Shown piece after piece: positions 16,956 through 21,295 of a stretch of 33,269 nucleotides of DNA. This DNA is from Marinifilum caeruleilacunae. Its GTDB lineage: Bacteria; Bacteroidota; Bacteroidia; Bacteroidales; Marinifilaceae. A program made the position numbers and the translations under genes. The stretch spans positions 1 through 33,269 of the forward strand of contig NZ_RZNH01000050.1 of NCBI RefSeq assembly GCF_013141825.1, in the 5' to 3' direction. A model generated the notes under the pieces. That model had not been told where the DNA came from. It did not search any database and was given only the letters and a program-made list of their open reading frames with translations. Numbering within the stretch: the first letter of the stretch is position 1; every line of letters begins with the position of its first letter.

Positions 16956-16994
16956 TAAAAAGCAAATGCTTTCTTTTCGAACTCCGCTTTAAAC

Positions 16995-17066
16995 TTTTCG
17001 ACCCTTCGACCCTTCGACCTTTCGACCTTTCGACTTTTTGACCTTTCGACTTTATGACTTTTCGAC
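16995..17066 (+). repeat. Nine tandem 8-bp repeats (consensus YTTTCGAC) upstream of rbfA
   Basis: The GAC trinucleotide recurs at 17000, 17008, 17016, 17024, 17032, 17040, 17048, 17056 and 17064, exactly every 8 bp. Units are TTTTCGAC, CCTTCGAC, CTTTCGAC and variants, with two degenerate copies (TTTTTGAC, TTTATGAC). The last unit runs into the promoter block shared with dusB. Confidence 0.92.
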
Positions 17067-17094
17067 TCTTTTCAAGACTTTATTATATCTTTGT
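17059..17094 (+). promoter_or_regulatory. Shared 36-nt promoter block, copy A, with -7 box TATCTTTG (17086-17093)
   Basis: This block contains TATCTTTG, a match to TAnnTTTG, 22 bp before the rbfA ATG at 17116. The whole 36 nt occurs again at 21228-21263 in the opposite orientation before dusB, with a single mismatch. Two copies in the same position relative to two different genes support its being a real promoter. Confidence 0.72.
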
Positions 17095-17115
17095 AAAAAA
17101 ATTAGAATCATATAT

Positions 17116-17451
17116 ATGGAAACCACAAGACAAAGCAAAGTTTCAAGATTATTACAGAAAGATTTGGGTTTAATTTTTCAGCAGGAAGGACGAAATCTGT
17201 TTGGAGGCAAAATGATATCGGTTACCACTGTGAGAATTAGTCCTGATTTGGGGCTTGCAAAAGTGTATTTGAGCATTTTTCCTTCCGAGAAATCGGAAGA
17301 AACACTCGAAGTGGTTAGAATGAATACAAAAAACATTCGCAGAATACTGGGAACCAAAGTAGGAAAACAACTGCGAGTTGTTCCTGAATTGGCTTTCTAT
17401 ATCGACGATTCATTAGATTATATTGAGAATATCGACAACCTATTGTCTTAA
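17116..17451 (+). CDS. rbfA: Ribosome-binding factor A
   Basis: This 111-residue protein has the RbfA KH-type fold and helps mature the 30S subunit and the 5' end of 16S rRNA. The start at 17116 gives METTRQSKVSRLLQKDLGLI, the normal family opening. The frame continues upstream to 17038, but that would translate the 8-bp repeat array and the promoter. Family marks are ISVTTVRISPDLGLAKVYLS in the centre and LRVVPELAFYIDDSLDY near the end. It is 14 bp before the permease gene and transcribed with it. Confidence 0.93.
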   Translation: METTRQSKVSRLLQKDLGLIFQQEGRNLFGGKMISVTTVRISPDLGLAKVYLSIFPSEKSEETLEVVRMNTKNIRRILGTKVGKQLRVVPELAFYIDDSLDYIENIDNLLS

Positions 17452-17465
17452 ATTCTTCTGCACAT

Positions 17466-18680
17466 TTGAATCTCCCTTTTCACATAGCCAGGCGATACCT
17501 GTTTTCGAAAAAGAAACAGAACGTTATCAACATTATCTCACTAATTTCGGTAGTTGGAGTTACGGTTGGTACCATGGCACTGGTAATTGTTTTATCGGCC
17601 TTTAATGGTTTAAATCAATTTATCGATCAGCAATACAGCAGTTTCGATCCCGATTTAAAAATACTTCCTGCAAAAGGAAAAACATTTGTGCCCGATTCTG
17701 TTTTCGATTCCATTAAAAAGATGGAAGAGGTGGCATTTTATGCCGAAGTACTGGAGGAGAATGCACTTTTGAAATACGGGAATCGTCAGCGACCAGCCAT
17801 TGTAAAAGGTGTAGACGAAAACTTTACCCTCATGACCGGTATCGATACCCTAATGGTTGATGGGAATTTTGTACTGGATGCAGAAAAATTTCAGTTTGCA
17901 GTATTGGGTTATGGTGTTGCATTGGATTTGGGTGTTGGATTAACCTTTGTTGACCAGATTAAATTCTACGTCCCAAAGCGAAACGCCAAACTTGGCATTA
18001 ATCCAATGAATGCCTTTAATACCGCTACTTTATACCCTTCTGGATTTTTCCAGGTTCAAATCGATTTCGATACCCAGTACACATTGGTACCTATCGAATT
18101 TGCCCGTAATCTATTCAGTTACAAAAACGATGTGAGTGCCATCGAATTGGGCATTAACGATACAGCCGATATCGAAGATGTAAAAGCTGATATCAAGAAA
18201 ATTTTGGGAGAAGATTACCATGTGAAAAACCGATTCGAACTTCACGATGTGGTATACAAAATGATGAAAACCGAAAAAGCTGCAGTGTTCTTCATCCTGG
18301 CTTTTATATTGGTGATTGCATCATTCAATATTATTGGTTCCTTAACCATGCTCATATTAGATAAAAAAGAAGATGTAAATACCTTACGAAGTTTGGGAGC
18401 CAACCAACAAACCATAAAGCAACTGTTCCTTATCGAAGGTTGCATGATTTCAATTTCGGGAGCAATTCTAGGTGTTGTTTTGGGCATTACCATATGCTTT
18501 CTGCAAATTAAATTTGGATTGGTAAAACTGGCCGCTGGTAGTTTCCTGGCAGATGCTTATCCGGTTAGTGTACATTTTTCTGATATTTTTATCATCTTTA
18601 TAACTGTTGTATTGATTGGATTTTTTGCATCAAGATTTCCGGTACAATACATCACCAAACGTTACTTACAGTTTAACTGA
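17466..18680 (+). CDS. FtsX/LolC-LolE-like ABC transporter permease (TTG start)
   Basis: This 404-residue inner-membrane protein has the MacB/LolC-E topology. One N-terminal helix (about 21-45) leads to a large periplasmic domain (about 46-260). Three more helices (about 263-290, 318-350 and 367-393) form the FtsX domain. The start must be TTG at 17466, since it yields the usual opening MNLPFHIARRYLFSKKKQN and no ATG or GTG lies nearby in frame. Lol-type permeases extract lipoproteins from the inner membrane using an ATPase; no ATPase gene is adjacent. It follows rbfA by 14 bp in an operon. Lipoprotein release is the likely job, inferred from family and the many lipoproteins here. Confidence 0.87.
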   Translation: MNLPFHIARRYLFSKKKQNVINIISLISVVGVTVGTMALVIVLSAFNGLNQFIDQQYSSFDPDLKILPAKGKTFVPDSVFDSIKKMEEVAFYAEVLEENALLKYGNRQRPAIVKGVDENFTLMTGIDTLMVDGNFVLDAEKFQFAVLGYGVALDLGVGLTFVDQIKFYVPKRNAKLGINPMNAFNTATLYPSGFFQVQIDFDTQYTLVPIEFARNLFSYKNDVSAIELGINDTADIEDVKADIKKILGEDYHVKNRFELHDVVYKMMKTEKAAVFFILAFILVIASFNIIGSLTMLILDKKEDVNTLRSLGANQQTIKQLFLIEGCMISISGAILGVVLGITICFLQIKFGLVKLAAGSFLADAYPVSVHFSDIFIIFITVVLIGFFASRFPVQYITKRYLQFN

Positions 18681-18758
18681 TAAGAACCACCCACTATCGA
18701 CAAATGAATGGGAGTTGCAAAATTCCTGGTTAAATAACTTATTTAAACAATTACAGAA

Positions 18759-19442
18759 ATGAAGAAGTTTTTAGTATTCTGCATGCTGGCATTTGGTATT
18801 TCAATGTTTGTAAATGCGCAACAAACTGCATTAACCGCCGATGGCAAGGTTGTAATCCTTTACGATAATGGAACCTGGACTTATGCCGATGTAAAGGCTC
18901 CAAAAAAAGAGGCTCAGGAAGTTCAAAAACAAGGAGGAGAAGTGCTTGAACAAGCCGCTGTTGTGCCAGTTGTTGATGATAGTCCAATTGATTTAAAGGA
19001 TGCCACTGTCGAAAAAATGGCTTTTATTGAAGGGCCAAGTAAAAAATTATCGAAGTATTTTAAGCAGAAGAACATTGTTCGTTGCGATTTGACCCTTACG
19101 GCTAAAGATGGAAAAGCATACCTGCAAACCGAATGGAAAATTATGAATGGCGAAGCTTATTCTTATTTCGGGTTTATAAAGGAAGGGAATAAACTTACAT
19201 TGGAATTAATTGGAGGTAAGATGGTTGATTTGGTGTATACCAAGGAATTCGAACCCAAAGAATACCAAAAGTACGGATTTTCAACTTATTCGGCAGAGGT
19301 GGAATTAAATGAAGAACAGATTCGCTTATTGAAAAACGCTATTGTGTATAAAGCTCACATGAACTGGTCAAGAAGAACAGAAGAGTATAAGGTTGTAGCT
19401 CCTTCTTACTTTATCAAATCATTGCCTCAAATTATTGAATAA
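18759..19442 (+). CDS. Secreted protein of unknown function, first of a tandem paralogous pair
   Basis: This 227-residue protein has a signal peptide (about 1-20, ending VNAQQ). A short N-terminal module with the pattern DGKVVILYDNGTWTYADV (about 27-45) resembles the DGxxVxLxxNGTWxY motif of DUF3157-type proteins. A variable acidic/glutamine-rich linker and a C-terminal domain (about 85-227) follow, ending in WSRRTEEY and SYFIKSLPQIIE. The next gene encodes a paralogue with the same plan, and the stop and start overlap (TAATG). It begins 78 bp after the permease gene, so it may belong to that transcript. No enzymatic motif is visible. Confidence 0.75.
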   Translation: MKKFLVFCMLAFGISMFVNAQQTALTADGKVVILYDNGTWTYADVKAPKKEAQEVQKQGGEVLEQAAVVPVVDDSPIDLKDATVEKMAFIEGPSKKLSKYFKQKNIVRCDLTLTAKDGKAYLQTEWKIMNGEAYSYFGFIKEGNKLTLELIGGKMVDLVYTKEFEPKEYQKYGFSTYSAEVELNEEQIRLLKNAIVYKAHMNWSRRTEEYKVVAPSYFIKSLPQIIE

Positions 19443-20089
19443 TGAAACACATCTTGCTTGTTGCCATATTGCTTTTTTGCAGCCTTTACCAGGCTGATGC
19501 ACAAATGAGATTGAAAGCGCCCGATGGACGAATTGTTTTGCTTTTCGACAATGGAACCTGGAAATATGAAGAGGTAAAAAAGGCTGAAATTCCAAAAGCA
19601 GAAATTAAAGCTGATGCGGAAATTGCAAAGCCGATTTTATTAAAAAGTGCAGAGCTCGAATCGCAAACCGTAATCAAAGGGGTAAGCGAGAAACTGAGTA
19701 AATTCTCTGATACCAAGAATGTGGTGAAATGTGATTTTCAGTTGCTTTCCGATGGAGAGAAAGTACTTCTGAAAACCAACTGGAAAATTATGGATGAGGA
19801 AGGTTTTCGCTTTTTTGGCTTCATCACGAAAAAATCAAAAATCGATTTTGAACTGTCCAATGGTGAAAGCATTAGCCTGCAATATGCAGCAGATTTCGAA
19901 CCTAAGGAATATCCAAATTATGGATTTACCATTTTTAAGTCAGAACTGGTTTTAAACCAGGATCAAATTAGGGCACTGCAAAAAGCATATATCACCAAAA
20001 GTACGATGCAGTGGAGCAGAAGGACAGAGGAATATGCAATTTATAATCCAGATTATTTTATCAGGGAATTGCCTAAAATCCTGGAGTAA
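19442..20089 (+). CDS. Secreted protein of unknown function, second of a tandem paralogous pair
   Basis: This 215-residue paralogue of the preceding protein has a signal peptide (about 1-20, ending ADAQ). It keeps the motif DGRIVLLFDNGTWKYEEV, a Lys/Glu/Ala-rich linker, and the C-terminal landmarks WKIMDEEGFRFFGFI, DFEPKEYPNYGF, WSRRTEEY and YFIRELPKILE. The upstream copy has WKIMNGEAYSYFGFI and EFEPKEYQKYGF at the matching places. The ATG overlaps the preceding TAA by one base, implying coupled translation. Both copies are complete. Subunits of one assembly or a duplication with divergence are both possible; the function is not known to me. Confidence 0.75.
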   Translation: MKHILLVAILLFCSLYQADAQMRLKAPDGRIVLLFDNGTWKYEEVKKAEIPKAEIKADAEIAKPILLKSAELESQTVIKGVSEKLSKFSDTKNVVKCDFQLLSDGEKVLLKTNWKIMDEEGFRFFGFITKKSKIDFELSNGESISLQYAADFEPKEYPNYGFTIFKSELVLNQDQIRALQKAYITKSTMQWSRRTEEYAIYNPDYFIRELPKILE

Positions 20090-20136
20090 GATTTCACAAA
20101 AACGATACTTGTTATCACAATATAATCATGAAAAAG

Positions 20137-20169
20137 AAAACGCAAAAGCTACTGGCCTTTGCGTTTTTT
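20137..20169. terminator. Bidirectional terminator between the paralogue pair and dusB
   Basis: AACGCAAA (20139-20146) pairs with TTTGCGTT (20158-20165), followed by TTTTTT on the plus strand. In the other direction the stem is followed by TTTTCTTTTT. It can end both the plus-strand operon and dusB. Confidence 0.8.
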
Positions 20170-20198
20170 ATATTTCTCAACTTTTGAATAGAAGTCAA

Positions 20199-21194
20199 TT
20201 ATTCATCTTCAATCTGCAATTCTCCCCATTCACTGGCAATATTATTCAGAATCACCATTAAATCGTCGTAATGATCGGCTCTAAGCATATCAATTCGGGT
20301 TTGCTTAAAATTGTACAAACCTTTAAACATTCCTGCCATATGGCGGCGCATGTGCAGTATTCCGCGTCTTTCGTCAATCCAATCAATGGCCGCATCAATT
20401 TGTTCTTTCAGCATATCTACCTGCTGGGCTACGGTGGCCGGTGGAAGTAGTTCTCCGGTTTTTAAATAATGCTTTACATCTCTAAAAATCCAAGGTTTTC
20501 CAACAGCAGCACGGCCAATCATTATCGCATCAACTCCAAACTTATCGAATGCCTCTTTGGCTTTTACCGGATTGGTAATGTCTCCATTACCAATAATTGG
20601 AATGTGCATTCGTGGATTGTTTTTCACTTCACCAATTAAGGTCCAGTCTGCCTCACCTTTGTACATTTGGCAGCGTGTTCTGCCATGAATGGTTAGTCCG
20701 GCAATACCTACATCCTGAAGCTGTTCAGCCAGTTCTACAATGATTTTCGAGTCTGCATCCCAACCCAATCTGGTTTTTACCGTTACCGGGATATTTACTG
20801 CCTTAACAACTTCTTCGGTAATTTTTAAAAGCTGTGGCACGTTTCTCAGCATGCCTGATCCGGCACCTTTCCCGGCAACCTTTCTCACCGGGCAGCCAAA
20901 GTTTAAATCAAGAAAATCAGGATTGGCTTCTTCTACAATTTTGGCAGCTTCTACCATTGGATCAACCTCTTTCCCATAAATTTGAATGGCAACTGGGCGT
21001 TCCTCTTCCAAAATGGTAAGTTTTTTCATGGTTCTGTTCACCGATCGAATCAATGCATCGGCAGAGATAAACTCTGTGTACATTAAATCGGCACCATAGC
21101 GCTTACACAACACTCTAAAAGGCGGGTTTGTTACATCTTCCATCGGAGCCAACAAAACTGGCTGCTTTCCTAAGTCCAAATTTCCTATCTTCAC
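20199..21194 (-). CDS. dusB: tRNA-dihydrouridine synthase (DusB type)
   Basis: This 331-residue FMN-dependent enzyme reduces uridine to dihydrouridine in tRNA using NAD(P)H. The TIM-barrel part shows LLAPMEDVTNPPFR, AIQIYGKE and LDLNFGCPVRKVAGKGAGS with the catalytic Cys101. It continues with VKTRLGWD, TIHGRTRCQMYKG, IIGNGDI and MIGRAAVGKPWIF (FMN phosphate site). The C-terminal helical tRNA-binding domain is present (about 245-331). Length is normal. It is transcribed alone from a promoter module that is nearly identical to that of rbfA and is preceded by the same kind of 8-bp repeat array. Confidence 0.93.
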   Translation of the reverse strand: MKIGNLDLGKQPVLLAPMEDVTNPPFRVLCKRYGADLMYTEFISADALIRSVNRTMKKLTILEEERPVAIQIYGKEVDPMVEAAKIVEEANPDFLDLNFGCPVRKVAGKGAGSGMLRNVPQLLKITEEVVKAVNIPVTVKTRLGWDADSKIIVELAEQLQDVGIAGLTIHGRTRCQMYKGEADWTLIGEVKNNPRMHIPIIGNGDITNPVKAKEAFDKFGVDAIMIGRAAVGKPWIFRDVKHYLKTGELLPPATVAQQVDMLKEQIDAAIDWIDERRGILHMRRHMAGMFKGLYNFKQTRIDMLRADHYDDLMVILNNIASEWGELQIEDE

Positions 21195-21227
21195 TTTCGC
21201 TTCTTTTTATTCGGTATGAATCAGGGC

Positions 21228-21263
21228 ACAAAGATATAATAAAGTCTTGAAAAGAGTTGAAAA
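21228..21263 (-). promoter_or_regulatory. Shared 36-nt promoter block, copy B, with -7 box TATCTTTG (21229-21236)
   Basis: This is the reverse-strand copy of the block at 17059-17094, differing at one of 36 positions (TTTTCAAC in place of TTTTCGAC). It places TATCTTTG 34 bp before the dusB ATG. After the -7 box and one further T, the two copies no longer resemble each other. Confidence 0.72.
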
Positions 21264-21295
21264 GTCGAAAGGTCGAAAAGTCGAAAAGTCGAAAA
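21256..21295 (-). repeat. Five tandem 8-bp repeats (consensus YTTTCGAC) upstream of dusB
   Basis: On the minus strand the units are three TTTTCGAC, one CTTTCGAC and one TTTTCAAC, exactly 8 bp apart, preceded by a partial unit. As at rbfA, the last unit is followed by a 12-bp step to the next GAC and then the -7 box. The two arrays share register but differ in copy number. Confidence 0.9.

Follow-up and report, generated by a model that had tools for sequence, protein, structure and literature searches.

MetJ binds, as cooperative ribbon-helix-helix dimers, to tandem 8-bp met boxes at promoters; its site, AGACGTCT, is palindromic and present in few copies. Elements of the REP/BIME type are intergenic dispersed palindromes that often lie behind gene ends. 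The available part of PMC9499535 describes Omega of plasmid pSM19035, also a ribbon-helix-helix protein, which binds 7-10 contiguous non-palindromic 7-bp repeats (unit WATCACW) overlapping promoters, with one dimer per repeat and neighbouring repeats bound with high affinity. Promoters of the Bacteroidota primary sigma factor carry a -7 element, TAnnTTTG, and a -33 element, TTTG (PMC9723704 and PMC7366714, in the portions available). Here we analyze a 33,269-nt stretch of the Marinifilum caeruleilacunae genome (the window), in which the facing promoters of rbfA (ribosome-binding factor A) and of a dusB-like tRNA dihydrouridine synthase gene (dusB below), approximately 4.1 kb apart, each carry an upstream array of 8-bp direct repeats and appear to have exchanged their upstream halves. 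Position numbers refer to the whole window unless a locus label (L033 and the like) precedes them.

The two arrays run in exact register, with nine units before rbfA and five before dusB (Table 1). A preliminary description of the window had given these counts, which stand, and a unit, YTTTCGAC, that is exact in only 5 of the nine and 4 of the five units; YHTTNGAC fits better and is called the strict unit here. Three consecutive strict units are found at seven overlapping places in the window and at none in 100 dinucleotide shuffles. Both arrays pass through an identical 12-bp step, as had been described, and from there into TTTATTA-TATCTTTG, i.e. TTTATTATATCTTTG. The shared 36-nt blocks indeed differ at a single position, their similarity stops one base beyond the -7 box, and the leaders that follow are unrelated (4 of 10 bases alike after the box). 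The box lies 22 nt (rbfA) and 34 nt (dusB) from the start codon; TATCTTTG stands 21-22 nt 5' of the rbfA start codon in 12 of the 12 genomes listed and 23-35 nt 5' of dusB in 11 of 12, G010 having TATATTTG, which is also TAnnTTTG. With this box close before the gene and a conserved short leader, both promoters resemble the primary-sigma form as the available text gives it; a TTTG at -33 is not clear in them, array units or the 12-bp step lying there, with TTCG or TTTTC near the expected place (by eye). With the box at -12 to -5, as PMC9723704 gives for F. psychrophilum, transcription would be predicted to start near 17098 (+) and 21224 (-).

Table 1. Features of the two array-bearing promoters (window coordinates).
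Feature	Position	Strand	Basis or remark
Decayed tenth unit of rbfA array, CTTTAAAC	16987-16994	+	Ten units from 16987 if counted
rbfA array, nine 8-bp YHTTNGAC units (one unit: TTTATGAC)	16995-17066	+	Sequence inspection, shuffles
Shared 36-nt block, rbfA copy	17059-17094	+	35/36 identical to dusB copy
12-bp step TCTTTTCAAGAC, rbfA side	17067-17078	+	Identical at dusB; resembles a longer unit of the array kind
rbfA promoter -7 box TATCTTTG	17086-17093	+	Matches TAnnTTTG
rbfA, ribosome-binding factor A	17116-17451	+	PF02033, E 5e-26; ATG start, conserved among orthologues
dusB-like tRNA dihydrouridine synthase gene	20199-21194	-	PF01207, E 6e-87; GTG start; orthologues found
Shared 36-nt block, dusB copy	21228-21263	-	One mismatch to rbfA copy
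dusB promoter -7 box TATCTTTG	21229-21236	-	Matches TAnnTTTG
12-bp step TCTTTTCAAGAC, dusB side	21244-21255	-	Identical at rbfA
dusB array, five 8-bp units (last unit: TTTTCAAC)	21256-21295	-	Sequence inspection, shuffles

The core of this promoter belongs to two genes only. In the 5.27-Mb source genome (G000), the 26-mer CTTTTCAAGACTTTATTATATCTTTG occurs, at up to three mismatches, at the rbfA and dusB places and nowhere else (twice in the window, against none in 100 shuffles). The 19-mer AGACTTTATTATATCTTTG, searched in 33 genomes at up to two mismatches, is exact at two places per genome in G000 and in four genomes of the same genus (G001-G004), before rbfA and dusB (coordinates compared with orthologue matches), and at a single place, before dusB, in G012 and in G013. 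A further seven places (a single one per genome) carry two mismatches and are at chance level, since the reversed control (the same search with the reversed pattern) gives ten matches.

Comparison across 11 genomes (G000-G004, the further genus member G005, and G010, G012, G013, G016 and G026) points to a direction of copying. Within a genome, rbfA and dusB have the same base at 19, 18, 18, 17 and 17 of the 19 positions preceding the box in G000-G004, and at only 5-7 in the other six. The core is thus at both promoters in five of the six genus members, the dusB of G005 being without it. In G012 and in G013/G024, which represent two other genera, dusB has TTTTCGACTCTTAAGACTTTATTATATCTTTG and rbfA does not; in these three genomes dusB already carries the array-like core. 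Before the rbfA box, G005 and G010 have TTCACTATAATTCTAC, and G013 and G024 a similar form, which we read as the older rbfA promoter. Within the genus, rbfA has probably acquired this core from dusB, the simplest account of the pattern.

A wider stretch hints at a later event in the G000 species. Over 28 bases before the box, rbfA and dusB agree at 27 positions in G000, at 21, 21, 18 and 18 in G001-G004, and at 7-14 in the six others, while the G000 dusB matches its ten orthologues at no more than 19 (16-19 for G001-G004) and the G000 rbfA matches those of G001-G004 at 24-25. The leaders, by comparison, follow the identity of the gene: that of G000 rbfA agrees with ten rbfA orthologues at 8-10 of 10 bases, and that of dusB with its orthologues at 5-10 of 10. 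Likeness between the paralogous promoters thus exceeds that between orthologues and is bounded by the shared -7 box, and we therefore infer local gene conversion or template switching. In such a process the upstream half of a promoter, through the -7 box, would pass between the facing copies by ectopic conversion or a template switch, with TATCTTTG as the joint between the copied stretch and the old leader; a second exchange of this kind probably homogenized about 28 bases in the G000 species. On the strength of this comparison we consider the exchange step likely. An inversion between the facing copies was also considered and rejected. No flip was noticed by eye, since the same outer neighbour sequence lies before rbfA in G001-G005, G012, G013, G024, G016 and G026; it was not seen within 260 nt in G010, G021 and G031.

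The arrays of the window are members of a larger family. Three strict units occur at 89 overlapping places in G000 and at none for the reversed control, and a pattern with nothing but GAC fixed, every 8 bp, likewise returns 89 overlapping places and no control match, with the open positions nearly all YHTTN. We catalogued 27 arrays in G000, 26 by rule in the fetched stretches and one, before rlmD, by hand; none of the 26 is contained in an open reading frame (ORF) of at least 80 codons. Thirteen of 58 genomes contain three strict units in a row at one or more places. All belong to the 14 genomes with an RbfA sharing 74% or more identity with the RbfA of the window (63% in the next genome), and none of the 44 others has such a run; the fourteenth of the close genomes, without such a run, is G005, which is 80% complete. 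The arrays are therefore an intergenic family specific to one group of Marinifilaceae. No paper with the repeat string or the combined repeat terms was found in the open-licence literature, which does not show absence from print, and a search for a plasmid source gave no match with the low-complexity filter on.

The units are constrained in an uneven manner. For G000 units whose neighbours are both perfect, the unit itself being unconditioned (N=96), positions 3, 4, 6, 7 and 8 read T96, T94, G92, A95 and C96, while position 1 is T67/C28/G1, position 2 is T63/A18/C15 and position 5 is C34/A32/G16/T14. The relatives show the same constraint with a few more exceptions (59 genus units; 47 of G010 and G016). 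Among the 21 arrays of at least four units, 16, 12, 1, 4, 16, 4, 0 and 0 are variable at positions 1-8, respectively, a less fair count than that of the middle units because its rule allows one mismatch per unit. Neighbouring units share the position-5 base in 42 of 96 cases, no excess over the 39.8 (sd 3.5) of shuffled order. The arrays are in this unlike a simple slippage microsatellite, as neighbours are not more alike and variation is not even over positions, though unit number does vary between relatives at rlmD, dusB and rbfA, as slippage would have it. Constancy of TT and GAC around an unconstrained position 5 calls for a sequence-specific factor, even if the tracts propagate themselves.

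Where the arrays lie is less uniform than what they contain. Beyond the 3' end of the Y-rich strand, the closest ORF presents its end at 17 of the 27 G000 arrays, its start at nine, and one case is undetermined; the preliminary description had held that arrays lying equally often away from gene starts would speak against a promoter module, and this is what we found. Four arrays have a -7 box no more than 30 nt from their 3' end (rbfA, dusB, dapD and rlmD), and a fifth array, L034:4366, has TAGGTTTG about 48 nt on (by eye). Among 53 distinct arrays from the fetched loci of the six same-genus genomes (pattern matches plus orthologues of the G000 loci, and so not a random sample), nine have TAnnTTTG no more than 30 nt from the 3' end and none has it on the other side; the nine represent five genes, rbfA, dusB, dapD, a YibE/F gene and rlmD. 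The distance from the last GAC to the box is 7 nt at rbfA and dusB (counting the GAC of the 12-bp step), 6 at rlmD and 7 at the YibE/F gene, and the dapD array touches the box. Across 32 genomes, a pattern of two units next to a box is matched six times, by rlmD in G001-G004 and by the YibE/F gene in G001 and G002; it misses rbfA and dusB because the 12-bp step intervenes.

Other arrays abut terminators. By a rule set after the sequences had been seen, a hairpin plus T-run faces the array within 75 nt of its 3' end at 12 of the 27 G000 arrays, compared to three on the 5' side, none of these closer than 13 nt. In nine cases (L033:11906, L034:7238, L037, L038, L040, L041, L042, L044 and L046) a strong terminator-like hairpin lies within 8 nt, the joint, read along the gene, running from TTTTTAAA directly into GTCNAAAA; at L034:7238, L037, L038 and L040 relatives keep the hairpin without the array. 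Given these box and hairpin counts, the edge of a transcription unit borders the 3' end of roughly half of the arrays. At the other edge, eight of the 26 G000 arrays are preceded by CAAGAC or CCAGAC, with which a 10-bp form of the unit (CTTCMAGAC) ends, and several others follow a GTCGAAGCTCGAC-like palindrome end in register (observed at loci L033, L034, L037, L045 and L046).

Arrays come and go between species. For 20 G000 arrays we inspected the orthologous places (700 nt past the gene end or 450 nt before the start) in up to five same-genus genomes and found a run of at least two units in at least one relative for seven; the rule missed G000's own arrays at L043, which lies too far from its gene, and L048, which is too decayed. 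G001-G004 have arrays of 7, 4, 10 and 6 units at rlmD, all standing before the same TATCTTTG, and G005 has a single intact unit left. The rbfA and dusB arrays vary in unit number and in unit kind among G000, the G001/G002 pair and the G003/G004 pair, and unit preferences are species-specific. The idea that promoter and repeats were copied as one unit is thus upheld for copying between the two promoters, but the arrays are no fixed part of what was copied. At the L036 place, long tracts of a sister unit, TATTCTAC, are seen in G002 and G003 (L312, L313) as opposed to YHTTNGAC in G000 and G001, as though one kind of unit had been swapped for another.

Among described systems, the arrays recall the operators of MetJ in that the window has tandem 8-bp units at promoters, but a -7 box adjoins few of the G000 arrays, and unlike the palindromic met box YHTTNGAC is directional, with position 5 free. 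With Omega/parS, as far as the available text of PMC9499535 describes it, they share contiguous, short, non-palindromic direct repeats, with at least four units following one another without gaps; in contrast to its 7-bp WATCACW, which occurs in both orientations at plasmid partition and copy-control genes, YHTTNGAC is an 8-bp unit, chromosomal and mostly away from promoters. Like REP/BIME-type palindromes (a class that PMC3733652 concerns), the arrays are dispersed, intergenic and often behind gene ends; unlike them they are direct repeats without a palindrome, though palindromes adjoin several (by eye).

We can thus present a provisional scheme in which local promoter exchange is combined with cooperatively bound (YHTTNGAC)n tracts, a best explanation that we put slightly below an even chance of being right as a whole. 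Tracts would grow, shrink, appear and vanish between species, and each unit would be a putative site, with TT and GAC read and position 5 not, for a protein covering contiguous 8-bp sites cooperatively, in the ribbon-helix-helix-like manner of Omega/parS or the MetJ operators. By this analogy the binding step is conceivable and tentative, falling just short of probable in our estimate. At rbfA and dusB, the tract and 12-bp step end 7 nt before the box with the last units in the -33 region; since units occupy the -33 place and whole-unit changes keep the phase, a bound tract would press on, repress or tune the promoter. Among the roles offered by the preliminary description, a regulator binding array is the most likely one, and of the length-variable tuning tract we can confirm the variation in length between species, at dusB, rbfA and rlmD. 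A bolder version takes (YHTTNGAC)n as a previously undescribed chromosomal array code, read by the group's own putative filament-forming DNA-binding protein, whose tracts would be movable tuning or boundary elements with the 3' end at a transcription-unit edge, beside a -7 box or behind a terminator, turning over fast and exchanged by gene conversion between facing promoters; we regard this as speculative and rather unlikely.

Several observations weigh against this scheme. The rbfA of G016 and G026 has a related core, AGACTTTTATT, with one extra T, and the branching order of G000, G005 and G001-G004 is unsettled in the comparison; for both reasons the number and direction of the exchanges are to be taken as parsimony readings. 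The excess likeness between the G000 promoters is strong only on the dusB side, because the G000 rbfA is already so close to its orthologues. The reader protein of the tracts remains putative. Most G000 arrays are not at promoters, facing gene ends instead, and with so many elsewhere, tuning rbfA and dusB would not be their general purpose. One unit near a -7 box is rarer than the reversed control in G000 (19 versus 68 places) and likewise in G001-G004, and a regulon of single-unit promoters was rejected for want of enrichment. Finally, for 13 of the 20 arrays followed, none of the relatives found carries an array at the corresponding place (L044 had no orthologue and L045 one), so that array position, not being conserved, is unlike that of a fixed regulon.

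The main rival is that the arrays are self-propagating or neutral tracts, their units spread and reshuffled by recombination from array to array or by an enzyme acting on TTNGAC, without benefit to the host. This would explain gain and loss at orthologous places better than binding does, and it suits the arrays joined to terminators whose hairpin persists array-free in relatives, the clustering with palindromic dispersed repeats (by eye) and the species-specific units; promoters would tolerate arrays because a whole-unit change upstream leaves them intact. It accounts less well for the placement at -7 boxes, and the conservation of TT and GAC but not of position 5, which holds over 27 loci of G000 and also in relatives, would still need a sequence-specific factor. 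Moreover, where the four-unit pattern appears in viral contigs it is mostly uniform: of 12 matching contigs, several of which share flanks and are hence not independent, eight have identical units, two have one differing unit and two are mixed. We see self-propagation as a serious contender, if on balance a doubtful one.

Two further explanations address the promoters themselves. The likeness of rbfA, dusB and rlmD could reflect a shared regulator of RNA-related genes, with each promoter shaped independently by selection and nothing copied, and the rlmD promoter lends this some substance: it reads GAC-TTTTTA-TATCTTTGTGCCC with arrays in G001-G004, and TATCTTTGTGCCC is also found at the dusB of G000 and G013. 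However, the 27 of 28 identical bases in G000 take in unit sequence not shared by the orthologues within the genus, the remaining array promoters (dapD and the YibE/F gene) do not belong to RNA genes, and the single-unit and two-unit searches revealed no wider set of such promoters; independent selection is accordingly improbable to us. A mobile cassette of array plus promoter, jumping as a unit, was suggested by two near-identical copies in one window, and the preliminary description had listed a small mobile promoter cassette among the possible roles, naming confinement of the block to these two sites, with no transcription start nearby, as a finding against its module. The core does prove to be at two sites only, in G000 by both the 26-mer (up to three mismatches) and the 19-mer (up to two) searches; being nowhere else in G000, it is not that of a mobile promoter cassette, and a genome-wide module is likewise not supported. 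In five species the core has its two copies before rbfA and dusB, and the arrays at orthologous sites vary in length and in their units. Nothing obvious in the way of mobile-element ends, inverted repeats or target duplication was seen by eye around the two copies, for which no dedicated search was made. We think a jumping cassette very improbable.

The rbfA-dusB pair offers a good case of neighbouring promoters exchanging their upstream halves up to a joint at the -7 box, which would be a simple route by which promoters could swap without moving genes. If the arrays bind a protein, they would be a functional chromosomal counterpart of plasmid centromere arrays, at dozens of places, and their turnover between sister species would provide a natural series relating unit number to promoter tuning.

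Some minor observations concern the surroundings of these arrays. The rlmD promoter (L216, L217, L223, L348 and L048:2100-2200) has a tract-to-box layout like that of rbfA and dusB, making three RNA-related genes that share it, and reads TGTGCCC from the box end, as does the G000 dusB. Arrays also lie within composite repeats with palindromes (L050:9146-10943, L052:8466-10534, L033:6500-12400 and L049:6700-8700), the palindromes beside them being CGTCGCA...TGCGACG or GGCGCA...TGCGCC and CCCAGGG...CCCTGGG (by eye); in G010 and G016 such composites recur every 180-310 bp or so, with one gap of 580, and look like REP-type dispersed repeats. In the window, a longer mechanical ORF from 17038 opens within the array and was rejected as the rbfA start, and the idea of an RNA gene was set aside, an Rfam scan yielding nothing that reached the gathering score. 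The 80-nt rbfA array folds at -7.8 and -8.7 kcal/mol for the two strands, values taken without a shuffled control. Between an FtsX-like gene and dusB, two adjoining ORFs (18759-19442 and 19442-20089) gave no Pfam match; they resemble paralogous secreted proteins, with an LxDNGTWxY stretch in both (by eye).

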